Virus record (IMG/VR): IMGVR_UViG_3300050119_000088
Location: 47,972 to 111,971 of that record
Strand: one strand, 5' to 3'
Origin: a virus
DNA length: 64,000 bases
Below, piece by piece: positions 2,771-64,000 of the stretch. Under the pieces are notes generated by a model, which was not told where the DNA came from, made no database searches, and saw only the letters and a program-made list of their open reading frames with translations. How positions within the stretch are numbered: position 1 is the stretch's first letter; every line of letters begins with the position of its first letter. The position numbers and the translations under genes are program-made.

Positions 2771-2773
2771 AAT

Positions 2774-3493
2774 CTACCTCATGACACTCAAATAACGATA
2801 CCAGTTCTGCTCTTCAAATAACTTCGGAGTCTCACTTGCATCTGTCAACACCCAAACGCCAACCCCGTGAGCATTGAACATAGGAAACGTTTGAAGTTGT
2901 GATGGCGTAAATACATAGCCTGTTGGATTCTTGCATTCAATCCAACGTTGGCCATATTGTTTGTGTGTTGCAAAGAGATCGGGAAATCCATACTGGAATA
3001 AGCAACCATACGTTTCCTTGACGTACCAACCTTCACCGGCCAATTTTATTTTGAGAGCTTCTTGTATATCTCGTTCCGGGCCACGTGAAGCAAGCCTAGT
3101 AGACCGCTCATACGGTCTTGAAGGCTTCTTATCTCGTGTCCGTGTAACTGGTTTCATCACATCTAAGTAAGTGTACCAGTTTTGGGGCTTAAAGAGTTTG
3201 TTGTATTCCCAATCGGTATCGGATGTAAGAATCCAAACCCCCGAACCGTTGTTACTAAGTTTCGGGAAGTCTTCCAACTGTGCTTCAGTAAAAACATAAC
3301 CAGTCGCTTGTTTGCACTCAATCCATCGGGCACCAAGAGTAAAATGAGCAGCAAAGACATCAGGAAAGCCAACCTGATATTCATTAGCGTGCGTTGCTTT
3401 CGCCATCCATCCGTTTTGATGGAGCTTCAACATGATTCGCTTTTGCAAATCGGATTCAGGTTTCCTAGCTGGAATAATTCTTTTGGGTTGCAT
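2774..3493 (-). CDS. Tandem-duplicated PD-(D/E)XK nuclease
   Basis: A 239-residue protein made of two copies of the same nuclease-like module. The first half carries GFPDVFAAH, about 15 residues, then RWIECK, ATGYVFTEAQL and FPKL. The second half repeats GFPDLFATH, RWIECK, PTGYVFTPSQL and FPMF. The D...ExK arrangement is the catalytic signature of VRR-NUC/Holliday-resolvase-like nucleases. Both active sites look intact, so this is probably a single-chain dimer acting on branched or replication DNA (inference). A linker of roughly 25 Arg/Lys/Ser/Pro-rich residues joins the halves. It sits among replication genes. I see no clear ribosome binding site. Confidence 0.75.
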   Translation of the reverse strand: MQPKRIIPARKPESDLQKRIMLKLHQNGWMAKATHANEYQVGFPDVFAAHFTLGARWIECKQATGYVFTEAQLEDFPKLSNNGSGVWILTSDTDWEYNKLFKPQNWYTYLDVMKPVTRTRDKKPSRPYERSTRLASRGPERDIQEALKIKLAGEGWYVKETYGCLFQYGFPDLFATHKQYGQRWIECKNPTGYVFTPSQLQTFPMFNAHGVGVWVLTDASETPKLFEEQNWYRYLSVMR

Positions 3494-3544
3494 AGGGCTA
3501 TAATATCCATGATCGCAAACAGCTCGCCTCCATGCGAGCTATTT

Positions 3545-3820
3545 TCACCTTGTCAGTTTGGCCAATGCAAGCAGACTAAGAGCCTTGTTGATACGAAGCA
3601 TATACGCTTCCTTGTTTTTGACGGCATCATCTGGATTGCCGGTGGCCGTTTTAAGGGCGACCCGAGCCTCGGTAATAAACTCGATAGCTCTCAGTTCATA
3701 ATAATCTGCGTCGCCCGTCTCTAATAGGGCAGACATCGGACCTGTCTCACGAGGATCAAAAAGCCCTTCAAGCAGGCTTGTCCTCACTGAGGTCATGGAC
3801 GGCCGTTTGGATCTTGCCAC
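3545..3820 (-). CDS. Hypothetical protein
   Basis: A 91-residue protein that I do not recognise. It starts with GTG at 3820, chosen because GGAGAAA lies about 6 bp upstream; an internal ATG at codon 9 is an alternative. It overlaps the upstream gene by 53 bp. The first 35 residues are basic and polar, the rest is helical and acidic-to-neutral with no Cys pairs or membrane segment. Overlap on the upstream side and a 51 bp gap downstream place it inside the polymerase operon. Confidence 0.6.
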   Translation of the reverse strand: MARSKRPSMTSVRTSLLEGLFDPRETGPMSALLETGDADYYELRAIEFITEARVALKTATGNPDDAVKNKEAYMLRINKALSLLALAKLTR

Positions 3821-4488: not shown

Positions 4489-6780
4489 TCATTTTTCACT
4501 CCAATTCTTCATAAACGGATTCCATTCCATTTTAATAAGTGGGACTTTGGGCCGGAATGTTTCCACCGCGTCATAAACAATCTTCTCAACTTGATTGACA
4601 TAATCAGGGTCGGTAGGACACATGATTTCGTCATGGATATTCATCGGAATAACACGCCAAGGATGAATACCCGACGGCTGAAGTTCCCAGATTTGTCGTT
4701 GAACTGCTTTGGTAATCTGGGCTCCTGAACTCTGAATAACATGATTAGCCGCTGCACGCATATTGTTGCCTTGCAAGCCGAATGCGGCTCCGAACAAAGC
4801 AGTTTGCGTTGCACCGCCGACAAGCTGTTCTCGATCTCGACGAACCACCTTAGTATTGATCTCTTTCCAATGCTTCGGTGGATGCTCTCCAAGATCAAAG
4901 AGTGCTTTGCAAATCATATTCTCAACAGTAAAGTAACGACGGAAACCCATCAACGACTCAATGTACTCGGCTGGATCGGCCCAAATAACTCGGCTACCGA
5001 TTCCATTGGGTTGAGTCATTGAACAGAAAGCTGTGAAAATCTTCTGTCGAGCCAAACCGACGCCATGATAACGACCAACAAAACGTTGGTATGCTGCTTC
5101 TGCAATCTCAACCGGAATACCGATTCGAGAATGTAGTGTGTTATGGTCGCCACCATAGATCAAAGCGAATACACCCCGCTTCGACATATCGTACATATCG
5201 AGTTCGCGGTCGCCGGCCGATGCTACAATATCTTCGTAAGTTTTTCCGGGAAACAAATATTGACCAAACAAAGCATGAATCTTCTTGCCCGATAGAAGAT
5301 CATTTCGCAAATCAATATCATTGTACGCAGCATCTGCAAGCACTACTTCAAATCCCGCAAAATCTCCTCCAGAGAGTTGCATGCCCGAGAAAGCAAGCGG
5401 AAAGCATCTTCGCACTTCTTTAGTTCGTTTGATACCTTGTGCATTGAGTTGGTCAGTGCCAGACATGCGAGACGATTTCGTTCCAATGATGACGAAACTC
5501 GCATGAAATCTTCCGGCTTGTAAAAGCTTGTCATAAAGTTCAAGTTCTTTGCCCGCACCGCGAGCATCGAGAACATTACGAGCACGTTCGGCGGCTGGAT
5601 GTGGAACACGACCTGTTCCCTTGCAAATTGCACAGGGGTAGCCAACTGGCATATCAATGCAGTCTTCGCAATCTTGTTCAGTGAGTGAAGCCACTTCTTC
5701 AAGAACAACCTTCTTGGTTGATCCCTTCATCGCAAGAATCTCTGTCGGATGCATCTTCTCTGTTACGTATCGCATTGCTGGGCCGGGTGCTGTTGGATAA
5801 GCTTTCTTCTTATCCAAAGCTGATTGACGCAATCGTTTGATGCCTTCAACATCGATTGCGAAACCCTTCCAACGAACTGCACCAACCATGCAAGCAAGTT
5901 CGGAATCATCGTCTCCCAATTCAGGTGAGCCGAAATACCGATACAATTTACGAGTAATGTCAACATCATTAGCCGCATACTTTCGAGCATACGTATTGAA
6001 TCCCCAATGATCAATGTGATGCTCGATAACGTCCGGCCAGGCTCCCTTCCAATTGTGACGAGAACCGATTGCACGAGCAAATGGTGCGTATCCGAGTTCA
6101 ACCGGATGGAACTTGGAATCAATATCAATATCCTGAAAGAACGTAACAAGATCCGGTTGAAGGCCCAAAGCGTCGGCCGCAAGTGTCTTCAACGCTGAAG
6201 ACGGAGCGAATGTTAATACAACATCTTTGAAATCAGGAACGATGTCACCTTCGGCATCTTCGATATCAAAGACATTCCAACGGGGAGCCCACTTGTTTTT
6301 CTTCTTGGCGAAATAAATATCCTTCAGTTGTACACGTCGCTCAAGTTCTTGTGCAAGATGCCATGCAAGAGCGGTTGGCACGCGACGGATTCGTACCTCA
6401 TCCCTCCGCATCATTGATTGATACGGGCCTTTGCGAGCATGGAGCATCAGATCCATCGCTCGAACTGGCTTGAGGCAATCACCATCGCGTGCCAACGGTT
6501 CATACTCAGCAAGCTCTTCGATCTGCTCGTCCGGATAAGAATCCTTATCTGGGAGCATGCTGAGCATAGAATAGATTTTGCAAATCTGGAACCAGTCGAA
6601 CGTCAGGTTGAATCCGACGATTCCGCCCGGATGATTGACGATCTCCTCGATTACCGAAAGTGTAGACGCGACGGTTTCCCGCCAGATTTCGTGAAGAATG
6701 ATCTCCTCATCATCCTTCGCGTACTGTAGGAGTACAGCGGGACCGACGAATCCACACGTTTCAGTATCAAGAAATATCAT
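4489..6780 (-). CDS. polA: Family A DNA polymerase with 3'-5' exonuclease domain
   Basis: Replicative phage DNA polymerase, 763 residues. The N-terminus (MIFLDTETCG) is a DnaQ-like proofreading exonuclease. The polymerase domain has motif A (GDFAGFEVVLAD, near residue 472), motif B (KRGVFALIYGG, near 532, with Phe at the position equivalent to E. coli Pol I F762) and motif C (HDEIM, near 715). An unusual feature is a four-cysteine insertion, CEDC and CAIC at about residues 370-386, that could bind zinc between the exonuclease and polymerase parts. No 5' nuclease domain is present. The start overlaps the upstream zinc-ribbon gene stop by ATGA. Confidence 0.95.
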   Translation of the reverse strand: MIFLDTETCGFVGPAVLLQYAKDDEEIILHEIWRETVASTLSVIEEIVNHPGGIVGFNLTFDWFQICKIYSMLSMLPDKDSYPDEQIEELAEYEPLARDGDCLKPVRAMDLMLHARKGPYQSMMRRDEVRIRRVPTALAWHLAQELERRVQLKDIYFAKKKNKWAPRWNVFDIEDAEGDIVPDFKDVVLTFAPSSALKTLAADALGLQPDLVTFFQDIDIDSKFHPVELGYAPFARAIGSRHNWKGAWPDVIEHHIDHWGFNTYARKYAANDVDITRKLYRYFGSPELGDDDSELACMVGAVRWKGFAIDVEGIKRLRQSALDKKKAYPTAPGPAMRYVTEKMHPTEILAMKGSTKKVVLEEVASLTEQDCEDCIDMPVGYPCAICKGTGRVPHPAAERARNVLDARGAGKELELYDKLLQAGRFHASFVIIGTKSSRMSGTDQLNAQGIKRTKEVRRCFPLAFSGMQLSGGDFAGFEVVLADAAYNDIDLRNDLLSGKKIHALFGQYLFPGKTYEDIVASAGDRELDMYDMSKRGVFALIYGGDHNTLHSRIGIPVEIAEAAYQRFVGRYHGVGLARQKIFTAFCSMTQPNGIGSRVIWADPAEYIESLMGFRRYFTVENMICKALFDLGEHPPKHWKEINTKVVRRDREQLVGGATQTALFGAAFGLQGNNMRAAANHVIQSSGAQITKAVQRQIWELQPSGIHPWRVIPMNIHDEIMCPTDPDYVNQVEKIVYDAVETFRPKVPLIKMEWNPFMKNWSEK

Positions 6781-6971
6781 CCGGTAATCCGAGCCTGTAA
6801 CGGAATAATAATCGTATCCTGAGATTCCTCGTTAGAAACCTCAACATACGTCGGAGGAAGATTACAGGTGTGATTGCAAGAATCACAACGGTAATAGAAA
6901 CCCCGACGGGCCGATTGAACACACATCATCCCGTCAGGACAGCGGGGACAAAGCTTCTTTTGGAACTTCAT
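6777..6971 (-). CDS. Small zinc-ribbon protein
   Basis: A 64-residue protein beginning MKFQKKLCPRCPDG with a second pair CDSC about 20 residues on, forming a four-cysteine zinc ribbon. Start at 6971 is chosen because AGGAGA lies upstream and because longer versions would run deep into parB. It overlaps the ParB-like gene end by 38 bp and the polymerase start by 4 bp, so translation of the three genes is probably coupled. Function unknown; possibly a nucleic acid or protein adaptor. Confidence 0.65.
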   Translation of the reverse strand: MKFQKKLCPRCPDGMMCVQSARRGFYYRCDSCNHTCNLPPTYVEVSNEESQDTIIIPLQARITG

Positions 6972-7764
6972 AGGGGACGCTCTTCTCCTGGGCGAGTGTC
7001 TTGATATCACCGAAAAGATCCGAATCGGCGATCTCTCCGGCTGCCCACGCAAGACATCGTGTTCCCATGTTGTTGCCGACACTTTCCCGAATGTGATCCA
7101 TCATGAGAAAAATCTCCTGACGATCACGAAGCTTCCGGGTCGAGGCTGGCCGCTTGATCGGTTCCTTGATCTTGATCTTCTCTCCCCGTTCTTTTCCTTC
7201 TTTGATCTTGCGAACAGCCTCGAACTGCTTCTCCTTGTTCCCGAGGGTGTAGAGATCCCGGATCTGCTGTTGAGAAAGCAAACCCCCGGCCGCTTCAACC
7301 TGGATCTCGGTGGGCAGTGTCAGCACGTAATAACGAATCTGAACCCAGCCACGCGACTGGTGCAAATCCGCCGCGACCTGCTCCTGTGTCATACCCGCTA
7401 TATACAGCTTCTCAAGAGCCTTGGCCTCTTGAACGATGTTGAGATCCTTGCGAGCAAGATTCTCGTCCAAGTTCATCAACCGAGCCTGGATATCCGTAAG
7501 GCCCACAACAATGTTACAAGGTGCAACTGGCTTCTCCAAAAGCTGGAGCGCCTTGAACCTTCTGTATCCACTGATGAGTCGGTACTTGAACCCCGTTTTG
7601 GCTTGGGCTGCTTCGTCGTAGGGCTGAATAACGAGAGCGTTCTGCAACTGATTCGCATCAATACTTCGGGCGAGGTCAACGACATCGATTGGAGCGATCA
7701 CTCCGCGACAGTTGAAGTCACTGTCAGCGTGGATCTCACCAAGCGGAATATCCTTCACATCCAT
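6934..7764 (-). CDS. ParB-like nuclease-domain protein (first copy)
   Basis: A 276-residue ParB/Srx-superfamily protein. The N-terminal domain contains the ParB box ISGYRRFKAL at about residues 58-67 and LMNLDENLARKDLN; a KorB-type helix-turn-helix (TQEQVAADLHQSRGWVQIR) follows near 123-140. The start at 7764 is favoured over TTG at 7782 because GGAG sits 6 bp upstream. There is no ParA partner nearby, so a role in regulation or replication rather than partition is likely. It is the first gene downstream of a conserved promoter motif (7822-7851). Confidence 0.82.
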   Translation of the reverse strand: MDVKDIPLGEIHADSDFNCRGVIAPIDVVDLARSIDANQLQNALVIQPYDEAAQAKTGFKYRLISGYRRFKALQLLEKPVAPCNIVVGLTDIQARLMNLDENLARKDLNIVQEAKALEKLYIAGMTQEQVAADLHQSRGWVQIRYYVLTLPTEIQVEAAGGLLSQQQIRDLYTLGNKEKQFEAVRKIKEGKERGEKIKIKEPIKRPASTRKLRDRQEIFLMMDHIRESVGNNMGTRCLAWAAGEIADSDLFGDIKTLAQEKSVPYEVPKEALSPLS

Positions 7765-7821
7765 AGCATACTCCCAAGCCAATCAATAGGTGAGGTAAAT
7801 TCGCATTTCACCTCATACCTT

Positions 7822-8712: not shown

Positions 8713-9159
8713 TTACTTCCCTTGTCTATTCAATTCAGCCATCTCTAAGCAAATAATTCTTCTGAGTTGTTTTGCACTTTCTGTCAAAGGCATGTTAGAT
8801 GTACTTGTACATTTAGTAAGAAATTCAAGCATCAATTCTGCTTGGGCGTGTTTTATAATAAGATAAGGCAACAGTGCTTCAAGAAACGGTTGTATTTGAT
8901 TAACTTGTAATACCCAAGTATACGCTGTTTTATAATTTTCCTTGTCTCTTAGCTTAGAGCCAATGCTACCTAATCCTGTTTTCTTTTGTAACCAATCTAC
9001 TACCGGCTTATATGTATTCGTTACAGATACATGAAGCCCATAAGTATAGTCGAGGTACTCTTTACCTCGACGCTTCTTATGTTGGTAAACGGAAATTGAG
9101 CCTTCACCGTCAACAATACCAGCGATATATGAAAGCTGGATTGGTGTAAGCAATTTCAA
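8713..9159 (-). CDS. LAGLIDADG homing endonuclease, paralog 1
   Basis: A 148-residue single-motif LAGLIDADG protein; YIAGIVDGEGSI places the motif at residues 12-20 with D17 and E19. This is the most canonical member of a seven-member family in the window. The C-terminal segment (LRRIICLEMAELNRQGK) matches the paralogs. It starts with TTG overlapping the helicase stop (TTGA), with GGAG 8 bp upstream. Single-motif proteins act as homodimers. Unlike the other copies it is co-directional with its neighbours. Confidence 0.88.
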   Translation of the reverse strand: MKLLTPIQLSYIAGIVDGEGSISVYQHKKRRGKEYLDYTYGLHVSVTNTYKPVVDWLQKKTGLGSIGSKLRDKENYKTAYTWVLQVNQIQPFLEALLPYLIIKHAQAELMLEFLTKCTSTSNMPLTESAKQLRRIICLEMAELNRQGK

Positions 9160-11129
9160 TATTGTCGCTCCGCATGGGCATTAATAATAGACTCTCTGAA
9201 CAAACCGAGACTCATATCTTGCAACTTTCTCTTCTTCTTCAGATTCTCGATAATGAGTGCATCGGACGGAAGATGGACTGCATCGATGATTGTGAGACCT
9301 TTATTAATATCCATGCCAATGCGGTGAGCGCGGTCTTCTGACTGCACACGAGACTCAGCGTTGAAGTCGTTGGAGTAATAATATTCTGTTGGTGATTCTG
9401 TGAGTGTAAGCCCAAGACCCCCTGATGCAGGGTGTGCAACGAAATTGATCTTGGCAATCTGTCGCGTCTTGTCCTGGAAAAGTTCAAGCATCTCCGATCC
9501 GCGTCGTCCATCAAGAATACCTGATCCCTTCCAACCGCGACCATCTACTCGAATGGTTTCCCATCCAAGCTTCTTGGAAGCCGCCACAATACGATCAATA
9601 GAACCTTTGAATCCAGCGAAAGTCACGAACCGACCAACATCTTCATGTTGGTCGAGAAGTTCGAGGAGGAAATCCTCTTTTGGACAAGGAACCTGAATGG
9701 CTTCTCGTTTGTATGCGGTGACAAAGCCATCTCCACCACAATTCGGACAAGTGATCTCCGCATCGGTGAAAACGTCTTCAGTGAGAACATCGGCTTTTGG
9801 CAATCGGAACAGATCACCAATCTCGACGCCGTAGCCTGAATATTGGTCGATATTCTCTGACGTGATCTCAATCTCATCTTCGACAAGCATCTTGTGCGTG
9901 ATGGTCTTGTTGCCATCACAAAGCGGGCATGGCTTGTCACCGACTTCTTCATCAACATATTGAAAACCATCACTCAGCTCCCGCAGGAGTGTCATTGCCG
10001 AGATCGTATTCTTGGCCGATGCCACAATGATCTTGGCAGCGTTCAGTGTGGCTCTGCTTGGTGCAAGCTCAATCTGTTTGTAAATCTTGTCTGGCAGATC
10101 AAGACAATCCTTTTTGAACTTGACTGTGACCAATCCCTTCATACGCTCATACAGATAGGACACTTCATTGATTGAGGGAATCCAACTATGAGCATCTGCA
10201 TGAGTAGAGAGAACTTTTGCCATTGGCCCATGAACATCATCAGACTTGAGCTTACCACAGATACCACACTTCTCGGTATTGTCAAGCCAAGTGACAAGTT
10301 GAGGATACTTGCCACCGGAAACTGCGTCCTTCATAACAATCAGTGCAAGTCGCTTCTTGAACTTCTGAGGAGTGCCCTCTTTGAGAAAGCCAGGCTGTGC
10401 AACCTCACACTGATGCCACCAATCTCCAGGATCTTTCGGTGCTGGCGATCCGCTCATTTCGATTACATAGCCATTGTAACCGTACTCAGCTCGAACGGAA
10501 TCAGCAAGATGCCTTGCAGCAACGGATCTCTGAGCCATTGGATTCTTGATCCGGCTTGATTCGTCGAAGATAACACCTTGTGGTGCCGGTTTCCCAACAG
10601 GCCAGTTCTCGACAATCTTCTTCAAGCCCTCGTAAGTGCAGAATGTCGGCTTGATCCGACAGCCCCACTTCTTCATCTCCAATTGAGCCGCGAAAAGAGC
10701 GCTCTTGGGAGCCACCCAGAACCAATCCGTGATGCCTGAATGCTCCATCACTTCGATTGCGGCAAGCGTCTTTCCGACGCCCATCTCTGCCGCCATGATA
10801 TTGTAGTGATAGGTCAAAGCATCAACAACCAGATCGATCTGGTGCTTGTAAAGCGACCGGGTCGGCTGGTAGTCGGCGATCTTCGGTCTATCGAACCAAG
10901 CGTAAGGGTTCTGTCCGCCCAAGAATGAGAGTTGAAATCGATTCCTATAAGTATCCTTAATCGTCCAAGATTTGTCGTCTGGATTCCAGCGAGCACCTTC
11001 GAAGGATTTGACTTCCTCAATCAGCTTCTTGTTGAAGCCGAATTTGAGTGTGATATTCTTTGTGTCCGAAGTGATTGTGGCGGGATAAAGAAGTGAATTG
11101 GCCATCAATTTGGTTGGGAGCATGAACAT
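9156..11129 (-). CDS. SNF2-type DEAD/DEAH helicase
   Basis: A 657-residue superfamily 2 ATPase. It has Walker A MGVGKT near residue 115-122, a DESS version of motif II near 185, SGSP motif III, and a motif VI segment RVQSEDRAHRIG near 590 that is characteristic of SNF2-family enzymes. Two cysteine clusters (CGICGK and CPLCDGN/CPNCGGDG) are inserted in the middle and probably bind zinc. The start at 11129 has GAGG 7 bp upstream; earlier in-frame starts lack one. Probably remodels or unwinds DNA for replication or recombination. Confidence 0.88.
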   Translation of the reverse strand: MFMLPTKLMANSLLYPATITSDTKNITLKFGFNKKLIEEVKSFEGARWNPDDKSWTIKDTYRNRFQLSFLGGQNPYAWFDRPKIADYQPTRSLYKHQIDLVVDALTYHYNIMAAEMGVGKTLAAIEVMEHSGITDWFWVAPKSALFAAQLEMKKWGCRIKPTFCTYEGLKKIVENWPVGKPAPQGVIFDESSRIKNPMAQRSVAARHLADSVRAEYGYNGYVIEMSGSPAPKDPGDWWHQCEVAQPGFLKEGTPQKFKKRLALIVMKDAVSGGKYPQLVTWLDNTEKCGICGKLKSDDVHGPMAKVLSTHADAHSWIPSINEVSYLYERMKGLVTVKFKKDCLDLPDKIYKQIELAPSRATLNAAKIIVASAKNTISAMTLLRELSDGFQYVDEEVGDKPCPLCDGNKTITHKMLVEDEIEITSENIDQYSGYGVEIGDLFRLPKADVLTEDVFTDAEITCPNCGGDGFVTAYKREAIQVPCPKEDFLLELLDQHEDVGRFVTFAGFKGSIDRIVAASKKLGWETIRVDGRGWKGSGILDGRRGSEMLELFQDKTRQIAKINFVAHPASGGLGLTLTESPTEYYYSNDFNAESRVQSEDRAHRIGMDINKGLTIIDAVHLPSDALIIENLKKKRKLQDMSLGLFRESIINAHAERQY

Positions 11130-11178
11130 GATCAATCCTCGAAAGCTGCAAGCAGCTTGGGTGACTTGCTTTCGCAAG

Positions 11179-11715
11179 TTATATGAATACGAGAGTTCCG
11201 TCTGCTAAGCCTTGCTTCGACCACTTGCTCCAGACATCTTTCAAATGCTGTTCGGTAGCAAGTCTAAAATAAATGAGATTGAAGAAAATTCGTAACTCAT
11301 AAGATGTATGTTCTTGACAAATCTCCACAATAATATTCTTCCACACTCTCAGATTGGCCGTTGCAATAAATACGGTGTCACTGTTGCAATCGATCAATAA
11401 GTCCGTTCCAAGTTTCAAGATTTCAATAAGCAAGGCTGGTTTGACTTCACAAAGAAACGTAAGTGTAATATGCTGTAGGATGTGTTCCGCATGTTGAATC
11501 GCAACGTGTGCATCGCTACCAGGATGTCGAAATGCCGCCAAGGTTGGAATGAGTGATAGTAATGATCCCGCCTTGATTCCTGCATTGTCGCAACCGCGTG
11601 TCGGAGATACACCAGTAATAATGTGTGTATCATTGACGAAATTGTGCCAATCAAACTGCGGCACGCTAATTAATCTAACGTGCATTCCTTTTACGTACTT
11701 TTGTATTTGGCTCAT
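11179..11715 (-). CDS. Hypothetical protein
   Basis: A 178-residue protein with no confident family. The middle is rich in hydrophobic and His residues (FRHPGSDAHVAIQHAEH), and a later stretch, ATANLRVWKNII followed by YELRIFFN, loosely resembles the C-terminal half of ThyX-type thymidylate synthases; the diagnostic ThyX RHR...S motif is not there, so I do not assign it. It overlaps the upstream gene by 41 bp and is 49 bp from the helicase. Confidence 0.5.
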   Translation of the reverse strand: MSQIQKYVKGMHVRLISVPQFDWHNFVNDTHIITGVSPTRGCDNAGIKAGSLLSLIPTLAAFRHPGSDAHVAIQHAEHILQHITLTFLCEVKPALLIEILKLGTDLLIDCNSDTVFIATANLRVWKNIIVEICQEHTSYELRIFFNLIYFRLATEQHLKDVWSKWSKQGLADGTLVFI

Positions 11716-13177: not shown

Positions 13178-13274
13178 GGGATCGCTGGAATTGAACCAGT
13201 CTTTCGTCCTTGGAAAATAGATCCTCAGAGAGGCTAATTCCAAGTTCGACGTGCAGCCGTTACACCGCAATCCC
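13178..13274 (-). tRNA. tRNA-like gene with expanded anticodon arm (TGG?)
   Basis: Acceptor GGGATTG pairs 7 of 7 with CGATCCC. The D-arm GTGTAACGGCTGCAC is canonical, with the conserved GG, and the T-arm is CTGG-TTCAATT-CCAG. After the D-arm the sequence CTTGGAA would be a normal anticodon loop (U33, TGG, A37), but CTTGGAA instead has a perfect complement TTCCAAG about 20 nt on, with CCTC-TCT-GAGG nested inside. The arm is therefore a long rod. Only 3 nt separate it from the next tRNA-like gene upstream. Confidence 0.5.
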
Positions 13275-13277
13275 AAA

Positions 13278-13375
13278 GGCCCAGCCAGGTTACGAGCCTG
13301 ATGTGTCACTAATGATTGTATTGAGTCTACGTCTCGTAAACACAGACTGTGCAATCATTCCGACACCGCTAGGCC
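13278..13375 (-). tRNA. tRNA-like gene with long central hairpin
   Basis: Acceptor GGCCTAG pairs 7 of 7 with CTGGGCC (one G-U). The T-arm is TCAGG-CTCGTAA-CCTGG, with an atypical loop. The region between can fold as a normal short D-arm (GTG/CAC), or as one long rod: GTGTC/GACAC, AATGATTG/CAATCATT and AGTCT/AGACT all pair. No unambiguous anticodon. It is in tandem with the element at 13178-13274. Confidence 0.45.
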
Positions 13376-13381
13376 ATGTAA

Positions 13382-13466
13382 GGGCCGGGCATAATAAGAT
13401 TTACCGAATATTCTCGCATCGTAAGATGGGAGACATCCGACAGTGATCTACAAAGTGTTCCGGCCC
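13382..13466 (-). ncRNA. tRNA-like structured element with perfect 7 bp closing stem
   Basis: GGGCCGG (13460-13466) and CCGGCCC (13382-13388) form a perfect closing stem of tRNA acceptor length. Inside, TCTC-C-CATC, loop TTAC, GATG-C-GAGA forms a rod-like hairpin. No TTC-type T-loop is present. Spacing of 6 nt to the next element fits a tRNA array. Upstream, 13467-13631 contains more hairpins (for example GTGATTGCC/GGTAATCAC) but no feature I can name. Confidence 0.35.
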
Positions 13467-13631
13467 CGCACACCGTTGAACGTTTCCGTAACGGGTACTA
13501 GTGATTACCGAAGGCCGATTTGGCAATCACCTTCCGACTTCACAACGACTTGGCCCGTTGCTGTCATCGGAATCCACACGCCACCGATCAAGATGACGTG
13601 CAGCCGGTTCGGTCACTAAGACCGTTCCAAA

Positions 13632-13895
13632 TTACGAAGGTGGAACCTGCTTGGACGGTTGAGCCGGATAGCCCATCGGCATTTGCTGGCCGGATGGCAT
13701 CGGAGCTTGTCCGACCGGGCCGGTGTACGAGTACGTCAACGTCTCATACCCACTGCAAGGAGCCATTTGCATCTGACCCTTGCAAGCCTGCTTGGCTGCT
13801 CTCTTGGCGGCTTTCGCAGCCTTGTGGCACTTGCCAGCCTCAGCCGGAAGTGACATCGCAATCAAGGCCACGAAAGCAAGTAGCATCCGAATCAT
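13632..13895 (-). CDS. Small secreted Lys/Cys-rich protein
   Basis: An 87-residue protein starting MIRMLLAFVALIAMSLPAEAG, a clear Sec signal peptide cut after Ala-Glu-Ala or nearby. The mature part has an Ala/Lys-rich helix (KAAKAAKRAAKQACK), three cysteines and a Pro/Gln/Met-rich tail. Start and upstream stop overlap (ATGA), and the gene is GC-rich with the codon use of the highly expressed genes. An envelope or lysis-related role is possible but unproven. Confidence 0.7.
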   Translation of the reverse strand: MIRMLLAFVALIAMSLPAEAGKCHKAAKAAKRAAKQACKGQMQMAPCSGYETLTYSYTGPVGQAPMPSGQQMPMGYPAQPSKQVPPS

Positions 13896-14629: not shown

Positions 14630-15595
14630 TCAGGCCGTCACGAGATCGGCCTTCGTCTCGGCCGCAGCGTTCGCCTTCGCGGCCTCACGATCCGCCTTAC
14701 GTTGAGCCTTGACCTCTTCATCCTTCTTGCGTCGGTCGGCGTCCTTCTGGCGATCCGCTTCGATGGACATCGAATCCATATGAAGCGTCCAGGCAACGCC
14801 CGTCTTGAACCCTTCGAGAGCCGTTGTCAGTCCGAGTTCGGCGACCAGTCGCGGGCCGACCTCATTCTGCTCGAACTCTGTCTTGATTTCGCCAAGCTTC
14901 CGGCAGTGCGGAACCGGCATGAACTCAGCGGCGTTCGGATTCCGACCTTGACGCTTGGCGTCGCGAAGTTCTTTGACGCGGGTATTGACGGTCGGAACGA
15001 ACTCGTTCGGCTGCATTGTCATCGCACGATCGACGAAGTGTGCTTGCTCATCAGCAGGCAGCTTCGCCAAAGCGTAGGCGTTGGACAAGTTGATCTTGTC
15101 CTCATCCACCAGCTTGGCGATGCGGGCTTCGAGCTTGATTAGCCCAAGCCGTTCAGAGATCCAGGTCGGCGACTTGGCCAACTTGGTCGCCAAAGACGCA
15201 GCGGTCATGGTCGGGTTGCCCGCCAGAATCCGCATGAGCTGCTTGCTGTACTCGACTGGCCGAGTCTCGACCTTGTGGATGTTCGTGATGATCTGGGCTT
15301 CGAGGACTTCGGCGTCGCTTGCCTCAATCACGTTGGCCGGGATCTCAGTCAGTCCAGCGTCGAGCGCTCCGGTGAATCGGTGCAGGCCGTCGATCAAGCC
15401 GTAAGTGATGTTACCATCACTGTCCTTGATCTCACGGACGACGACCGGATTCAGCACGCCCTTGGCCCGGATTGAATCCACCAATCCGAGGTAGTCTTCG
15501 GCCGTCTTGTTGACGTTCCGTAGAGCGGAAGGGTTCTCCCGAATCTGCGAAAGTTGGACAACTTTCGGTCGCGTCTTCGGGGTTGTACTTGCCAT
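14630..15595 (-). CDS. ParB-like nuclease-domain protein (second copy)
   Basis: A 321-residue ParB-superfamily protein. VVVREI and GLIDGLHRFTGAL (about residues 63-75) form the ParB N-terminal core; MTAASLATKLAKSPTWISERLGLI is the helix-turn-helix. The last 60 residues are a Lys/Glu/Ala coiled coil. The start MASTTPKT at 15595 has GGAG 8 bp upstream. Like the other ParB-like gene it follows a copy of the conserved promoter motif and has no ParA neighbour. Confidence 0.85.
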   Translation of the reverse strand: MASTTPKTRPKVVQLSQIRENPSALRNVNKTAEDYLGLVDSIRAKGVLNPVVVREIKDSDGNITYGLIDGLHRFTGALDAGLTEIPANVIEASDAEVLEAQIITNIHKVETRPVEYSKQLMRILAGNPTMTAASLATKLAKSPTWISERLGLIKLEARIAKLVDEDKINLSNAYALAKLPADEQAHFVDRAMTMQPNEFVPTVNTRVKELRDAKRQGRNPNAAEFMPVPHCRKLGEIKTEFEQNEVGPRLVAELGLTTALEGFKTGVAWTLHMDSMSIEADRQKDADRRKKDEEVKAQRKADREAAKANAAAETKADLVTA

Positions 15596-15695
15596 ACTGG
15601 CCACTCCTAATTTGCTTACCGCAATCCTCATTGGTTGGCGTTGAAAGGAATACGCAATCCAATCAATCGTCGAGCCCTGCTGACACTTTCACTCT

Positions 15696-23468: not shown

Positions 23469-23887
23469 TGGAAACAGAGAACCGCGTTAAGATCATGTAT
23501 GTGTCGATGGAAAATGTATTAAGTATGTTTTCGATTATTGGCAACAATCATGACAATATGTGCTACTCAATTCCAGTTATTCCGTCACTACCGCTAGGCT
23601 ATAAGATACTGAATTGTTGTTGGGATTATGTCCGCATGACAGTAGGCATTGTTATTTTTCATGATAGCTTTCCTATTATTAGCGTTGGAGAAATGCCTCC
23701 GCGTTGGGATGATGGTCGTTACGACGTATTACAGATTCCGAAAAGCTTAGAGTGGCTTCAAATAGCTCTCAAGCTTTTACGTTCTGATCCACCAAGCTAT
23801 GGGCGAACAAATCGTTGGCTCAATGCTGGTTTCTCACAAATTGATATTGATCGATTATTAGCACTTGAAGCAGCACAAGATCCATGA
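23468..23887 (+). CDS. Hypothetical protein
   Basis: A 139-residue protein, METENRVKIMYVSM at the start, ending LLALEAAQDP. Beta-type pattern with one hydrophobic stretch (VRMTVGIVIFHDSFPIISVG), too short and polar to be a sure membrane helix. Its stop overlaps the LAGLIDADG start by ATGA; before that insertion it probably overlapped the exonuclease start in the same way. Confidence 0.5.
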   Translation: METENRVKIMYVSMENVLSMFSIIGNNHDNMCYSIPVIPSLPLGYKILNCCWDYVRMTVGIVIFHDSFPIISVGEMPPRWDDGRYDVLQIPKSLEWLQIALKLLRSDPPSYGRTNRWLNAGFSQIDIDRLLALEAAQDP

Positions 23888-24315
23888 ATATTCTTACAGA
23901 TAAACAGATTGCTTATCTTGCGGCAGCTATTGATTTTGAAGGTTCAATCAAATTGAATAGTGTTACAATTCCTAAAGCAACAGGAGTTATGTGTACTTTT
24001 GCTGTTGAAGTTGGTAATACAAGTTTTGCTTTATTAAATCATTTACAACATATCACAGGTCTCGGAATTATTTATCCAAGACCTAAACAAAAAGGTTGGA
24101 AGCAAGCTTTTATTTGGAGTCTTCGTGTTCATGAAATGCGAGACTTTCTTGAAGCAATTCAAAATGATCTTGTAATCAAAAGAACACAATGTGAAATTCT
24201 ATTAGAGTATATGAATCATGCTTGGAGCAATCCGTTAACAGAAGATCAGAACACATTACGTCGTGTAATGTTATCTGAGATGAAGGAACTTAATAAGAGA
24301 GGAACGGACGACTGA
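23884..24315 (+). CDS. LAGLIDADG homing endonuclease, paralog 2
   Basis: A 143-residue single-motif protein with YLAAAIDFEGSI (motif at residues 12-20). It has the family C-terminal box LRRVMLSEMKELNKRG. It separates the upstream gene from the exonuclease; the 9 bp GATCCATGA occurs on both sides (23879-23887 and 24322-24330), as if target DNA had been duplicated. Stop and following ATG overlap. Expected to work as a homodimer cutting an intron- and insertion-free allele. Confidence 0.85.
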   Translation: MNILTDKQIAYLAAAIDFEGSIKLNSVTIPKATGVMCTFAVEVGNTSFALLNHLQHITGLGIIYPRPKQKGWKQAFIWSLRVHEMRDFLEAIQNDLVIKRTQCEILLEYMNHAWSNPLTEDQNTLRRVMLSEMKELNKRGTDD

Positions 24316-24917
24316 TGGGACGATCCATGATTCATTTGAACGGAGATATTTTGTGCAGCATCGATTGCGAGACAACAGGACTAGTAGCAGGTTTTCATGA
24401 TCTGATTCAAATCTGCATACTCCCACTTGATGCGGCAATCAGACCTGTTACGACGATTCCACCTTTCTATACACTCTTGCAAATGAAGCGGCCAGACAAT
24501 GTTGATCCCAAAGCCATGAAAGTCAATGGTCTCAAGACCGGAGACATTCAGCTTAACGGATTAGACCCTTGGCGGGCAGCGGATCTATTGGAAGAATGGA
24601 TTGCCAAACTCGATCTTGATCGTGGCAAGAAGATTTCACCACTTGCCCAGAATTGGGCATTTGACAAAGGCTTCATTACAGACTGGCTTGGTGGTCCGAC
24701 ATTTGATAGCCTAATCAGCTACAAAGGTCGTGACACAATGACTACGAGTCTTTATTTGAATGATCGTGCAGATCACCATGTTGAACCTGTTCCCTTCGCC
24801 AAGAATGGATTGAAGTATCTTTGCTCAACTTTGAAAGTTGAGAATACTCGATCCCATGATGCCTTGCAAGATTGCATCAGTACAGCCGAGGTCTATCGGA
24901 GAATGTTAACTGTATGA
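24315..24917 (+). CDS. DnaQ-like 3'-5' exonuclease
   Basis: A 200-residue DEDDh exonuclease. SIDCETTG near residue 15-22 gives the first Asp and Glu, NWAFDKGF in the middle gives the third, and RSHDALQDC near 178-187 gives His and the last Asp. Probably proofreading or RNA/DNA trimming alongside the polymerase. The likely ancestral start is ATG at 24327 (MIHLNGDIL); the extra four codons come with the LAGLIDADG insertion. The last nine codons (TAEVYRRML) are also present, silently recoded, after the next insertion. Confidence 0.85.
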   Translation: MGRSMIHLNGDILCSIDCETTGLVAGFHDLIQICILPLDAAIRPVTTIPPFYTLLQMKRPDNVDPKAMKVNGLKTGDIQLNGLDPWRAADLLEEWIAKLDLDRGKKISPLAQNWAFDKGFITDWLGGPTFDSLISYKGRDTMTTSLYLNDRADHHVEPVPFAKNGLKYLCSTLKVENTRSHDALQDCISTAEVYRRMLTV

Positions 24918-25345
24918 AGTTATTGTCCGTTGCCGACAAACGTGTACTTGCAATGGCAATTGATTGTGAAGGTTGTATTTCAATTACACAGAACCTTAGA
25001 CGTAAAAATATTGAAGGTATGTTGCAAGTTGATCTTGGAAATACCAATATCACGTTTCTTTTATATTTATGTGATTTAACAGGAATAGGTATTATTGATC
25101 CTGGGTACAAATATATTGACAAAAATTGGAAGAAGTCTTATAAGTGGAGATTGCGTAGATATGAAATGTTGAAATTTATTATTGCAATTGAACCTTATCT
25201 TATTATCAAAAGAGATCAAGCTATGATCATGATTGAATATCTTGAAAGACGCTGGTCGAAACCGTTGTCTGAAGAAGATATTAATCTTAGAAGAGTTATG
25301 ATTTCTGAAATGAAAGAACTCAATCAAACAGGAGAAATTATCTAA
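24914..25345 (+). CDS. LAGLIDADG homing endonuclease, paralog 3
   Basis: A 143-residue protein, VLAMAIDCEGCI with the motif at residues 12-20, and the family C-terminus LRRVMISEMKELN. Start at 24914 (ATGA overlap with the exonuclease stop) is preferred over an earlier in-frame codon because it aligns exactly with the paralogs. Inserted at the 3' end of the exonuclease gene; the displaced original tail lies directly downstream. Confidence 0.87.
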   Translation: MKLLSVADKRVLAMAIDCEGCISITQNLRRKNIEGMLQVDLGNTNITFLLYLCDLTGIGIIDPGYKYIDKNWKKSYKWRLRRYEMLKFIIAIEPYLIIKRDQAMIMIEYLERRWSKPLSEEDINLRRVMISEMKELNQTGEII

Positions 25346-36998: not shown

Positions 36999-37430
36999 AT
37001 GAAATCACTCTCGTGCTGTCACAAGGTTGCACTTGCTTGGACAATCGATGGCGAAGGTTGTATTGACTTACAACCAAACGTAAAGTGTATTGCAACCTGT
37101 ACGTGTCAATTGCGTGTTGTTGTCTCTAATACAAATATTGAATTTCTTAAACGATTACAATATACAACAGGTCTCGGAAGTATTGAACCTGATGGTTCCA
37201 AGAAAACTGGACAGAAGCAATCATACTTGTGGCGACTTAATTATCCAGAGATGAAAGAATTTCTAGAAGCAATTCAACCATATCTGGAAAATAAATGGCA
37301 TCAATGCTATATTCTTCTTGAATGGCTTAATAGAGGATGGGAAACTCCATTGTCTGAAGCTGATCTTCAATTTAGAAGAACAAGCCTCAGTGCAATCCGA
37401 GAATATAATCAAAAAGGAACCATTGATTGA
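36999..37430 (+). CDS. LAGLIDADG homing endonuclease, paralog 4
   Basis: A 143-residue protein, ALAWTIDGEGCI with the motif at residues 12-20. AAGGAG lies 9 bp upstream. It points against the late operon, inserted between the tail tube and chaperone genes, and is flanked by a perfect 23 bp duplication of the chaperone gene start. The insert replaced the chaperone start region without destroying its reading frame. Confidence 0.87.
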   Translation: MKSLSCCHKVALAWTIDGEGCIDLQPNVKCIATCTCQLRVVVSNTNIEFLKRLQYTTGLGSIEPDGSKKTGQKQSYLWRLNYPEMKEFLEAIQPYLENKWHQCYILLEWLNRGWETPLSEADLQFRRTSLSAIREYNQKGTID

Positions 37431-55826: not shown

Positions 55827-56252
55827 ATGAAATCATTATCTGAAAAAGAGAAAGCTGTTCTTGCAATGGCAATTGATTGCGAAGGACATATTTCTTTGTC
55901 ACTACATGAAAAGACTAAAAGAAATAGTTTTACTTGTAGTGTTGTTGTTAGAATCATGAATACAAATATTGATTTACTACACCACATACAATCAATGACA
56001 AGAATAGGTGTCGTTGATCCACAAACAAAGATTCCAAAACGAAAATTACAATACATTTGGAGACTTCGTACACACGAAATGGAAGATTTTCTTGAAGCAA
56101 TTAAAAATGATCTTGTAATCAAAAGAGATCAATGTGTAATTGCTCTTGAATATCTGACACGTGATTGGCAAAATCCGTTATCAGAAGATGATCTTCAGTT
56201 TCGTCGTGTTGCATTTTCTGAGATGCAAGAACTCAATCAGAAAGGAGATTAA
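55827..56252 (+). CDS. LAGLIDADG homing endonuclease, paralog 5
   Basis: A 141-residue protein, VLAMAIDCEGHI with the motif at residues 12-20 and C-terminal LRRVAFSEMQELNQKG-like box. CGGGGAG precedes the ATG. It sits antisense between portal and fibre genes; its stop overlaps the portal stop. I found no duplicated flank here. Confidence 0.87.
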   Translation: MKSLSEKEKAVLAMAIDCEGHISLSLHEKTKRNSFTCSVVVRIMNTNIDLLHHIQSMTRIGVVDPQTKIPKRKLQYIWRLRTHEMEDFLEAIKNDLVIKRDQCVIALEYLTRDWQNPLSEDDLQFRRVAFSEMQELNQKGD

Positions 56253-58351: not shown

Positions 58352-60025
58352 TTACATAATATTGTTGGGCATATCCCGAGACTTACCAAGAGCTACTGCG
58401 AGCGGCATTGCGATTTCTGAATAATTACGTGCATGAGCATAGTGGTCATCGATTGCAGGAGCCTTCACATACCGCCCGATCGGGTTTCCTTCTTTGTCTT
58501 TTTCGTAAACACGCACAAGCGCTTTAAGATGGCCACGGTACTCAAGATCAATATCCAGAGGTAGAGAAATGGATCTTCGAGGCCCATGATATCTACCAAG
58601 AGACAGATCGAGCCAGCTTGTGCGATCAACATCGACCGCAGGCTCCGTATCATCTTTAAGCTTGATTTGTTTGCCTGTAACACCTTGTGCGTAAAAACAT
58701 AGGCGAACTTTACCCCAAAACCGACAAGCAAATTCATAAGCTTTGCGTCGCTCAGGATTTGCATCAATAACGCAGAAGTTGATGCCCCACTGTGTCATCA
58801 AGAGATCGAGTTCATCAAAATTACGCACCTTACCGAATTTGACTGTACGACAACGAGATAGGACACTAATATCTGCACCTGATACGTTACTTGGGAGGAA
58901 CCATTCATCAATGTGGTAGTGAAGCCATGTTCCGACATCAACACCCATTGTAGTTACATTTGGCGTGATAACATCACCATTCTTATGGCTACCACGACAT
59001 GCATCGAGATCGGCATCTGTAATCCGGGCACCTTCAACTGCATGTGGCAATCCGAGTTTCGAGTTATAGAATTCTTGCTCGGCTGCCTTGTCACTTAAAG
59101 ATTCAAGATACAACTTTGCGATTTCACCAGGTGATACTGTGCAACTATAGAGCTGATTAATGTACCAGCCTTCAGTATCTCGCCCGGTGTGGCCAGGTTG
59201 CCAAATTCCTTTGGCAAGAAAGTCAGTCTTAGCAGCATGTTCAAGAATATGCTGGCAATTCGGACAAATCAGATGCGACTGGTGTATCTGTTGATTGTTA
59301 GGATCATCGCCAACTATGACTAATGATTTCGGAAACGTGAGTTCAACATGGCGGCTGCAATGAGGACAAGGAAAGAAAAAATGATTTTGAGTAGAAGCGT
59401 TGAATTCTTTGTTAATGCCATAGTTTTCAATCGTTGCTGTGGAAATCATCCAAAGAGCTTTTTCGACTTGTCCTGAAGAACGTTCCTTGACTAGAGGAAT
59501 ATTCTCCTGTGTCATTTCATCTAGCTCATCTAGAATGATGAGTCCAACCGGAACGGACTTCAAACCAGAACGGGAGCGTGAACCGCGTATGAAGAGATTG
59601 TTTGTACCGGCTCTTTTGTGACCAATGTTTTTCACTTCGGAAAACATATTCGACAAATGCGGCGATAGTTCCAAGGCTGGATCGAATCGTGAAGCAGAGA
59701 AATCCGAAGCATCAGGCGTTTTTGCTGGAAGAATATAAAGACAGTCAACGCCCTTTTGATCAATATTGTAGAATGTAACATTCAAGACGGTTTCAGTGTA
59801 TCCCATCTGAGCAGACTTCTGGCCTACATTAACCTCGGCTTCAGAATCATGCATAGCACGAAGCCAAGGATGATGCTTAAAGGTCCAGGCACCCGGATAA
59901 GGTTTTCCCATGACTCGGCAAGCACAAGCCCAACGTGAGCATTTACTCAGGGATTTACGTTTAAGTCCCTCATTAATGCGTTGGGCCATCAAAATGGCTA
60001 AGTCATGCATAGATTGGCCAATCAA
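58352..60025 (-). CDS. terL: Terminase large subunit, gpA-type
   Basis: A 557-residue DNA packaging ATPase-nuclease of the lambda gpA family. The Walker A analogue is GQKSAQMGYTE near residue 65, as in gpA (KSARVGYSK type). Walker B is LIILDELDEM near 159. Two CPHC/CPNC pairs near 218-258 form a zinc ribbon. The nuclease domain begins GVDVGTWLHYH near 358. A TTG start at 60025 with GGAGAG 8 bp upstream is preferred to ATG at 60010, which has no ribosome binding site. Confidence 0.92.
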   Translation of the reverse strand: MIGQSMHDLAILMAQRINEGLKRKSLSKCSRWACACRVMGKPYPGAWTFKHHPWLRAMHDSEAEVNVGQKSAQMGYTETVLNVTFYNIDQKGVDCLYILPAKTPDASDFSASRFDPALELSPHLSNMFSEVKNIGHKRAGTNNLFIRGSRSRSGLKSVPVGLIILDELDEMTQENIPLVKERSSGQVEKALWMISTATIENYGINKEFNASTQNHFFFPCPHCSRHVELTFPKSLVIVGDDPNNQQIHQSHLICPNCQHILEHAAKTDFLAKGIWQPGHTGRDTEGWYINQLYSCTVSPGEIAKLYLESLSDKAAEQEFYNSKLGLPHAVEGARITDADLDACRGSHKNGDVITPNVTTMGVDVGTWLHYHIDEWFLPSNVSGADISVLSRCRTVKFGKVRNFDELDLLMTQWGINFCVIDANPERRKAYEFACRFWGKVRLCFYAQGVTGKQIKLKDDTEPAVDVDRTSWLDLSLGRYHGPRRSISLPLDIDLEYRGHLKALVRVYEKDKEGNPIGRYVKAPAIDDHYAHARNYSEIAMPLAVALGKSRDMPNNIM

Positions 60026-60352: not shown

Positions 60353-60541
60353 TCAGCCGCCCTTGCCGGGTGCGGTGTTCGGGGTGGTGGACGACGAGTT
60401 GTTCGGATTTCCGTTGGCTGGAATGTTGGCCACACTGACCACACCCGGAACATAGCCACTGTTGGGCTGATCCGCCGTGCCGCCAGTCTTGGCAGGTTGA
60501 ACGACGTTCTGAGCAACACCTTCACCGATCTGTTGAGTCAT
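60353..60541 (-). CDS. Small disordered Asn/Pro/Ser-rich protein
   Basis: A 62-residue protein, MTQQIGEGVAQNVVQP at the start, ending NTAPGKGG. The start at 60541 is set by GGAGGAGAGA upstream. Composition resembles the next gene (60100-60327), so the pair may be related or act together. Confidence 0.5.
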   Translation of the reverse strand: MTQQIGEGVAQNVVQPAKTGGTADQPNSGYVPGVVSVANIPANGNPNNSSSTTPNTAPGKGG

Positions 60542-60569
60542 GATTCTCTCCTCCTCTAAGGGCCTTAAG

Positions 60570-60989
60570 ATGCTCCATCTTACTGAATGCAAGCGAGAAG
60601 TCTTGGCAATGGCTATTGATTGCGAAGGCTGGATTGCCTTTGCATGTAATAAGAAGCAAAACTACAATATAGTTGCATTAGTTGGAATTTCAAATACAAA
60701 GATCAAACTCTTGAGGCATATTCAAGACATGACAGGAATTGGATCTATTGGTCCCAAACCTAAGCCCAAAGGAAAACGGGCTCAAGGATACCAATGGAAT
60801 TTACGTTCATACGAAATGAGAGCATTTCTTGAAGCAATTCAGCCGTATTTGATTATCAAATCAGAACAGTGTGAACTTGCTTTGAAATTTCTAAAATACG
60901 GATGGAGCAGACCGTTGAATACTGAAGATATTAATCTTCGAGAGGAATGGGCTGAAAAGATGATTGCACTCAATGAGCGTGGAGCTTAA
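60570..60989 (+). CDS. LAGLIDADG homing endonuclease, paralog 6
   Basis: A 139-residue protein, VLAMAIDCEGWI with the motif at residues 12-20 when started at 60570, which is why that ATG is chosen over 60540. The C-terminal family box is more degenerate (LREEWAEKMIALNERG). Antisense to the late operon; its stop overlaps the stop of the convergent zinc-finger gene. Confidence 0.85.
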   Translation: MLHLTECKREVLAMAIDCEGWIAFACNKKQNYNIVALVGISNTKIKLLRHIQDMTGIGSIGPKPKPKGKRAQGYQWNLRSYEMRAFLEAIQPYLIIKSEQCELALKFLKYGWSRPLNTEDINLREEWAEKMIALNERGA

Positions 60990-61525
60990 TCAAGCTCAGG
61001 CTTCAAATTGAGGATTGCTCTTGCAATCTTGTTGCTGATCGCATCAATGGCGTTTTCGTCCTTGACTTCCTCGCTAATGATTGCGACGATCTGTGTAGCG
61101 AGACTCAAGGCACTGCTCTTATCAAGTAACATGCCCAGATTTGATTCGAGTTTGTTACACGAGGTAACAAGTTTCTCGATTTTCATAAGCATGTCAGAGA
61201 TTTTGCCGCTATATAAGAGTAATTCACCTTGCGACTTACAAGAGGTGATTACATTCTCTAAAACGACACGAGCAATTCCGATTTCTTCACGTAGCGACTT
61301 AACGCCATCATGATCAGTGAATTCGTTAGCTCGAGTTTGCCATTGTGCAAGATGATAGCCGCGAATGATTTTCTTTTGGGCTACTTCTTGGGCTCGATTA
61401 CCGCCATGCATAGGGCAATATGAAGAACCTTCAGCCGCTTTGTAGGGACACTGACCATTCGTGTATGATGACTGACAGCGGCGAGGATCACTTTCTTCTA
61501 CTCGCTCAAATTTGGATTCTATCAT
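60986..61525 (-). CDS. Zinc-finger protein, candidate terminase small subunit
   Basis: A 179-residue protein. The N-terminus RCQSSYTNGQCPYKAAEGSSYCPMHGG is a C-x8-C-x9-C-x2-H zinc site, followed by a long helical region. It sits near the start of the late operon and upstream of terL, the usual place of a DNA-recognising small subunit, and the helical build suits oligomerisation. No direct family match, so this is a positional inference. Confidence 0.45.
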   Translation of the reverse strand: MIESKFERVEESDPRRCQSSYTNGQCPYKAAEGSSYCPMHGGNRAQEVAQKKIIRGYHLAQWQTRANEFTDHDGVKSLREEIGIARVVLENVITSCKSQGELLLYSGKISDMLMKIEKLVTSCNKLESNLGMLLDKSSALSLATQIVAIISEEVKDENAIDAISNKIARAILNLKPELD

Positions 61526-62649: not shown

Positions 62650-62694
62650 GGAAGTAGGACCGAATTCTTTATTGATTGGATTGGAGCTTTGATT

Positions 62695-63219
62695 ATGCAA
62701 TCACTCACCTGCTGCCAGAAGACCACACTTGCAATGGCTGTTGATTGTGAAGGTTGCTTGTCTCTTTGTTATGTGGGAAGAAAAGCACAAACATATACGT
62801 GTACTGTTAGTGTTGGTATTTCAAATTCAAATTTGGAGTTTCTTGAATATTTGCAAGATATGGTTGGCTATGGTACAATTAGTCCTTTTGGAAAAGTTGA
62901 TGGTTGGAAACAAGTCTACAATTGGAGAATTGGATTGGACAATCAAATTATGTTTCTTGAGGCAATTGAAAAGAACCTCATTATCAAATGGGAACAATGT
63001 CGTATTCTCTTGGAGTATTTGAAACGTGATTGGGAAGATCCCTTGTCACATGACGATATTCGCCAGAAAATGTATTGGGTGAAGAAAATTTGCGAGGTGA
63101 AAAAATTTAAAAAAAAAATTGAAAAGTCGATTTCAGATTTTGAAAATCCGAAAATCGATTTTGAGAATCTTTGTGAAATTGCCACAAAATATTTCGGATT
63201 GAAAATCCCGGAGTTCTGA
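62695..63219 (+). CDS. LAGLIDADG homing endonuclease, paralog 7, with C-terminal extension
   Basis: A 174-residue protein, TLAMAVDCEGCL with the motif at residues 12-20. Start at 62695 (GGAG 8 bp upstream, downstream of the sigma70-type promoter) aligns with the family. In place of the LRR...SEMKELN box it has a different, Lys-rich tail of about 45 residues (KKIEKSISDFENPKIDFENL), so this copy may have a new DNA-binding part or partner. It is the only copy with its own strong promoter and it borders the array. Confidence 0.87.
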   Translation: MQSLTCCQKTTLAMAVDCEGCLSLCYVGRKAQTYTCTVSVGISNSNLEFLEYLQDMVGYGTISPFGKVDGWKQVYNWRIGLDNQIMFLEAIEKNLIIKWEQCRILLEYLKRDWEDPLSHDDIRQKMYWVKKICEVKKFKKKIEKSISDFENPKIDFENLCEIATKYFGLKIPEF

Positions 63220-63253: not shown

Positions 63254-64000
63254 CATATGTAGGGCCTTTCATATCTGACCCTGCACATATGTCGAAAACA
63301 CACATATGTTGCGTGTTACATATGTTAGGCCGCACATATGTTGTGAACTACATATGTGTCGGGGTTCATATGTGCCTCGATACATATGTGCCTCGCCACA
63401 TATGTATCACCGCACATATGTGGTGTACTACATATGTACCTCGATACATATGTGTAGCCGCACATATGTGATGTACTACATATGTACGACGACACATATG
63501 TAGTGTGTTACATATGTGGCGAGCTACATATGATCGTGCAATCATATGATCGCGGCCACATATGTGGGCAAGTACATATGTACCATGACACATATGTGCA
63601 GCGGCACATATGTAATGTACTACATATGTGTGCTGCTACATATGTGGTAGACTACATATAAGTGAGAGTACATATGTGTGCTGCTACATATGATTTTAAA
63701 ATCATATGTGGTAGCGTACATATGTGGTGTACTACATATGTGGTGTACTACATATGTGGTGTACTACATATGTGTGGCGATACATATGATTGCACAATCA
63801 TATCGCCGCCCGCACATATGTGTCGTCGTACATATGTAGTTGATTACATATGTAGTACCATACATATGTGCTGTGCTACATATGTGCTGTGCTACATATG
63901 TAGTACATATCATATGTAGTATACTACATATATAATATAATACATATGTAGCATGCTACATATGTATTATATTATATATGTATTATACTACATATGATAT
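63254..64000. repeat. Phased palindrome array, 16 bp period, CATATG core
   Basis: CATATG or a one-base variant recurs every 16 bp. From 63303 to 63991 there are 44 register positions with no insertion or deletion; three more (63254, 63270, 63286) precede with one 17 bp step. The common unit is ACATATGT plus an 8 bp spacer. Spacers differ (GGTGTACT occurs four times; GTGCTGCT and GCTGTGCT twice each) but mostly begin with purine and end with pyrimidine, extending the palindrome to YACATATGTR. The right part is increasingly AT-rich and the array runs off the window. It is not coding: 16 is not a multiple of 3. Confidence 0.95.

Follow-up and report, generated by a model that had tools for sequence, protein, structure and literature searches.

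A 16-bp lattice of CATATG palindromes near the terminase genes of an uncultured phage as a candidate landing array for a dimeric DNA-binding protein

We asked why a phage genome would carry dozens of copies of one short palindrome at a fixed spacing of 16 bp. The window, i.e., the whole stretch of DNA analysed here, comprises 64,000 nt and corresponds to bases 47,972–111,971 of a 111,971-bp uncultured phage contig. As the array lies at the extreme end of this contig, the 47 sites counted represent its minimum size. The main lattice (63303–63996, without a strand) consisted of 44 sites carrying CATATG or a one-base variant at positions 63303 + 16n (n = 0–43), with an exact 16-bp period and variable 10-bp spacers. 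Exact CATATG was present at 40 of the 44 sites in the register table; the variant cores were CATATA at 63655 and 63927, CATATC at 63799, and TATATG at 63975. The first three sites of the array (63254–63291, also without a strand; CATATG at 63254, CATATC at 63270, and CATATG at 63286) were one base off the main register, giving the total of 47. The 17-bp step before 63303 was the sole break in spacing, and the array was otherwise free of indels. The original prediction of at least 47 CATATG palindromes in a 16-bp register was confirmed, and its coordinates were unchanged. Exact CATATG occurred 42 times in the 747 bp of the array versus 32 times in the remaining ~111 kb of the contig. Upon searching the contig for CATATG-N10-CATATG-N10-CATATG, all 31 matches fell inside the array and the reversed control pattern gave 0 matches. 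The open reading frames (ORFs) inside the array were mechanical read-through of the repeat and were rejected as genes.

Units agreed with one another at a mean pairwise identity of 0.97 in the core and 0.77 in the A/T on either side of it; in the six inner spacer bases the mean was 0.30, the value of random sequence. The retained motif was approximately YACATATGTR. In an ordinary minisatellite, the whole unit is conserved and drifts together; the difference between core and inner spacer observed here was unlike that of a tandem repeat that simply ages. Judging from the sequence, and at a probability of about one half, we regard the array as a lattice, kept by selection, in which sites for a dimeric DNA-binding protein abut one another in a control or terminus region of the phage. 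A landing array had been proposed earlier and is the best-supported reading because the core and register are kept, the spacers are randomized, and three relatives show this motif at this period; the binding itself is what we infer. Dimers would sit across the ATGTR-N6-YACAT intervals, and every CATATG would be shared by the two neighbouring dimers, one half-site going to each; alternatively, each CATATG may itself be the centre of one site. The 16-bp spacing would allow dimers to load side by side and to form a continuous nucleoprotein stretch, which may organize the end of the phage DNA or control late transcription, replication or packaging. When nothing but a short palindrome and its register survives in an array, this points to selection for proteins loading side by side.

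The terminase large subunit (TerL) of the GpA type (58352–60025, minus strand; PF05876, E = 2.9e-35) defined the clade used for comparison, and many TerL relatives were found in viral contigs at about 50–60% identity. We searched 112 unique loci of this clade for lattices of all 64 palindromic hexamers at periods of 9–40 (32 periods), with thresholds of our own choice. CATATG formed lattices at the 16-bp period or its 32-bp harmonic only, and 3 of the 112 loci carried them (L192, L257, and L219, the last in two places), each with different spacers. All three relatives had their lattices upstream of TerL, as in the window. The L192 lattice read CATATGCACGCTTTAG-CATATGCATGCTTTAG-CATATAG followed by a degenerate stretch, and that of L257 read CATATGTACACATGTA-CCTATGTATACCTGTA-CATATG; both were short and degenerate. 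L219 contained a 20-copy array (ATATGTCCGACGGATC) and a short second lattice. The shuffle control gave one match in total over 20 sets of dinucleotide shuffles, and among the 64 palindromes and 32 periods only combinations of the A/T-tract AAATTT reached as many loci as CATATG. Of the 49 relatives whose sequence extends more than 4 kb upstream of TerL, only 3 had the lattice. Since only 49 loci have this much upstream sequence, a missing lattice is often uninformative; still, most of those 49 had none. Related genomes in which neither spacing nor core was conserved had been named as grounds for rejecting the prediction, which survived this comparison through the recurrence of motif and period in three relatives, although most relatives lacked the lattice.

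An exact 22-mer of the array unit had no match in other viral contigs, the array had none among phage and plasmid records, and nothing relevant on phage arrays of this kind was found in the openly accessible literature. Arrays of ACATATGT in three unrelated viral contigs (L005, L006 and L007, with 4, 3 and 16 exact copies, respectively) were alike in the 16-bp period but differed from the phage lattice in that their whole unit was conserved. When ACATATGT triplets were scanned without bias as to spacing, 16 bp was one of several spacings, the others being equally common. Therefore, these unrelated arrays are no proof of a common protein, and the likeness is possibly a coincidence.

Operators of known regulators offered a further comparison. 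CATATG-N10-CATATG-N10-CATATG was common in bacterial genomes (at least 119 stretches), and among the matches listed, the adjoining ORFs encoded ArsR proteins in 5 of the 10 scanned and a heavy-metal P-type ATPase in 1 of 10. As many of these bacterial matches are ArsR-family operators, they were rejected as kin of the phage array. The ArsR/SmtB operators of Clostridia and relatives share with the array the CATATG at 16-bp steps and the dyad across each interval; like the array they are non-coding, and they lie beside a regulated gene. However, they have three to about five sites per promoter versus 47 in the phage array, which exceeds by far the length of every operator cluster encountered in the present comparison. 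The array thus had the ArsR/SmtB register of 16 bp with a dyad across intervals, whereas the ArsR/SmtB half-sites ATGAA-N6-TTCAT were replaced in most units by ATGTR-N6-YACAT, with A following CATATG in 5 of 44 units. ArsR/SmtB operators also adjoin an ArsR or metal-transport gene, whereas an ArsR gene (PF01022) was absent from the contig and from the array-bearing relatives. PadR operators consist of ATGT/ACAT with a spacer of 8–10 nt (PMC3506622). Most, not all, array intervals fitted ATGT-N8-10-ACAT, most of them being ATGT-N8-ACAT as in PadR operators; unlike the array, the latter sit at single promoters, and a PadR gene (PF03551) was absent from the array-bearing phages. Winged-helix dimers are thus already known to use a 16-bp register, as the ArsR and PadR operators show, and half-sites shared along a lattice would allow them to load next to one another. 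Because the array-bearing phages yielded no gene of the PadR, ArsR or ribbon-helix-helix type, the array was not filed under those families.

The leading candidate for the cognate protein, by adjacency alone, is the ParB-like protein encoded in the repeat-rich hub upstream of TerL. In L257, a ParB-like gene (2337–3551) adjoins the lattice at a distance of ~0.35 kb, and in L219 such a gene (4908–6098) lies 1.15 kb from the main lattice. The homologue in the window genome is located at the opposite contig end (L038, 906–1844). If the contig closes into a circle, the ParB-like gene, the repeats, a 264-aa ORF with a homologue in L257 (61620–62414, minus strand; 40% over 50 aa, E = 3e-12), a conserved gene in the putative terminase-small-subunit position (60986–61525, minus strand; directly upstream of TerL in the clade), and TerL would form one stretch, and the array would occupy a repeat-rich control or terminus region between the ParB-like gene and the terminase operon. 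This closed gene order would approximate that of L257 with the same orientations, where the homologue of the 264-aa ORF sits between the ParB-like and terminase genes, but the CATATG lattice of L257 lies on the far side of its ParB-like gene. Seven further loci have a homologue of the ParB-like gene upstream of TerL, in most cases encoded on the opposite strand, and relatives devoid of the lattice also carried ParB-like genes. Taken together, the selection acting on the core and register, the recurrence in relatives, and the location of the array upstream of the terminase make a protein-binding lattice the best explanation.

The ParB-like protein of the window genome alone had no Pfam match. 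Its predicted structure (mean pLDDT 78) matched Noc, KorB and ParB structures with E-values down to 1.4e-8 and modest TM-scores, at best 0.4–0.6 of the target, and the family profile without two clear ParBs still retrieved Spo0J and Noc. ParB/parS systems and sopC-like plasmid centromeres are arrays of tandem palindromic sites. The phage lattice resembles them in its tandem palindromic sites, which in relatives lie near a ParB-like gene; it differs in that the phage has no ParA, the site sequence is unlike parS, and the candidate ParB-like protein is divergent. A search for ParA-type ATPases (PF13614) yielded none over the cut-off, the one weak match falling in a UvrD-like helicase ORF, and no tyrosine integrase was found in the phage. 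Plasmid-like partition is therefore not favoured, which weakens the partition site that had been suggested for the array. A more specific and distinctly speculative version of the binding lattice is a centromere-like one lacking ParA, in which a divergent ParB-like clamp encoded beside the terminase would load on dozens of abutting CATATG sites and, for packaging or segregation, coat or mark the end of the genome; the site sequences would turn over quickly within the clade. If the cognate protein were found, the array would make it possible to test how phages mark or organize the genome end and how ParB-like proteins act without ParA. The phage contig contained at least four ParB-like genes and no ParA (6934–7782 and 14630–15631 in the window, 906–1844 in L038, and 18737–19306 in L039).

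The main rival to the binding lattice is a functionless tandem repeat, which we regard as possible, though clearly the less likely of the two. The array would have grown by slippage and unequal exchange within a non-coding hub that evolves fast, and a mutational process such as hairpin-templated correction, not protein binding, would have kept the palindromic cores. A clade-wide tandem-repeat hub is indeed present upstream of TerL, with many periods and sequences, often of 7 bp and generally non-palindromic; as it is packed with unrelated tandem repeats, arrays may arise there by slippage. Tandem repeats of non-triplet period made up 3.3% of bases upstream of TerL versus 0.03% downstream across the clade and occurred upstream in 50 of 80 loci versus 4 downstream, a contrast that arises partly because the downstream region is dense coding sequence. 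Identical neighbouring spacers (63719–63751 and 63863–63879), as expected from duplication, and the inverted repeat at the end of the array also fit this explanation. However, the other hub arrays mostly keep the whole unit, whereas here the spacers were random with the core at 97% and the period kept, and the CATATG motif and 16-bp period recurred in three relatives.

General palindromicity of the repeat arrays of the clade was considered and rejected, as 25 of 142 arrays were palindromic versus a shuffle mean of 35. The hub showed several other repeats. Exceptionally dense tandem arrays with periods of 7, 8, 13, 14, 16, 34 and 68 occupied L219:1–9300 upstream of the terminase, the 13-bp array including inverted units, and in another relative (L163:4300–4860) a 27-nt inverted repeat, AAGTCCTT-N7-AAGGACTT, was scattered in about ten copies upstream of the terminase, its loop in either orientation. 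In L259:546–740, likewise upstream of the terminase, (G)TATAC recurred at about 17/34-bp steps with varying spacers; L219 also has GTATAC at 34 bp. At the opposite end of the phage contig (L038:232–445), short tandem repeats of the ACGACGCGACGA type were found, consistent with a hub spanning both contig ends.

It is unlikely, in our judgement, that the array and its terminal palindrome mark a pac, cos or terminus region read by the terminase or a small-subunit-like protein. Both in the window and in relatives, the array is situated upstream of the terminase genes, and the contigs of many relatives end within such upstream repeats, as in the window genome. However, assembly also breaks at repeats, leaving contig ends there, and most relatives have quite different repeats at the corresponding place.

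A role as nucleic-acid structure, in which the intervals or the terminal palindrome act as RNA hairpins, a cruciform or a hairpin telomere, appears very unlikely. The palindrome is a near-perfect 94-bp inverted repeat (63907–64000, without a strand; 46 of 47 pairs, centre 63953.5) that is cut by the contig end, terminates exactly where the contig terminates, and mirrors even the variant cores CATATA/TATATG; it may reflect a true inverted duplication or a foldback artefact, or be a hairpin end. The spacers had been described as free to vary, which held for their random inner identity but not fully, as they showed some dyad symmetry above shuffles and column composition (p about 0.0003–0.02, with spacers within 2 mismatches removed), strongest at spacer positions 4/7 and absent at 5/6. 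When Watson–Crick pairs only were counted, this symmetry was not significant at stricter thinning. It faded as near-duplicate spacers were removed and was therefore treated as suggestive; at that strength it was also taken to favour the binding lattice. Compared with shuffles that preserve the lattice, the whole array folded more stably on either strand (z = -2.7 and -3.6); however, folding without the terminal units was no better than in these shuffles (z = -0.7 and -1.6), G-T pairs across spacers were weakly in excess, and an Rfam search of the array gave no match. Because the folding excess depends on the terminal units, we set aside RNA hairpins as the chief function of the array, and the repeatedly self-pairing transcript suggested earlier lost ground accordingly.

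A decoy that titrates a host regulator of the ArsR or PadR type is highly improbable: the interval fits the spacing of both operators and the phage itself has neither gene, but in most units its motif (ATGTR) is unlike the ArsR form (ATGAA).

The gene adjoining the array (62689–63219, plus strand) had been called a LAGLIDADG gene; PHROGs assigned it to phrog_5046, labelled 'HNH endonuclease', and it remains homing-endonuclease-like. It is probably a separate mobile gene and, as one of many genomic copies of its family, not obviously part of the array. This family had ~10 copies in contig G000 with a motif like A-I/V-D-x-E-G, many of them between or beside phage genes, and the phrog_5046 assignment held for both tested copies. 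The copies lay at 8713–9159, 23884–24315, 24872–25345, 36999–37430, 55827–56252, 60540–60989 and 62689–63219 in the window and at 10941–11378, 13260–13691 and 16757–17242 in L038. Many copies of a further repeated family, its members ~160 aa long and carrying a motif like LLTQG-x-x-LLDEIDY, were also present in contig G000 (e.g., L039 15564–16055; L040 228–719 and 4691–5182).
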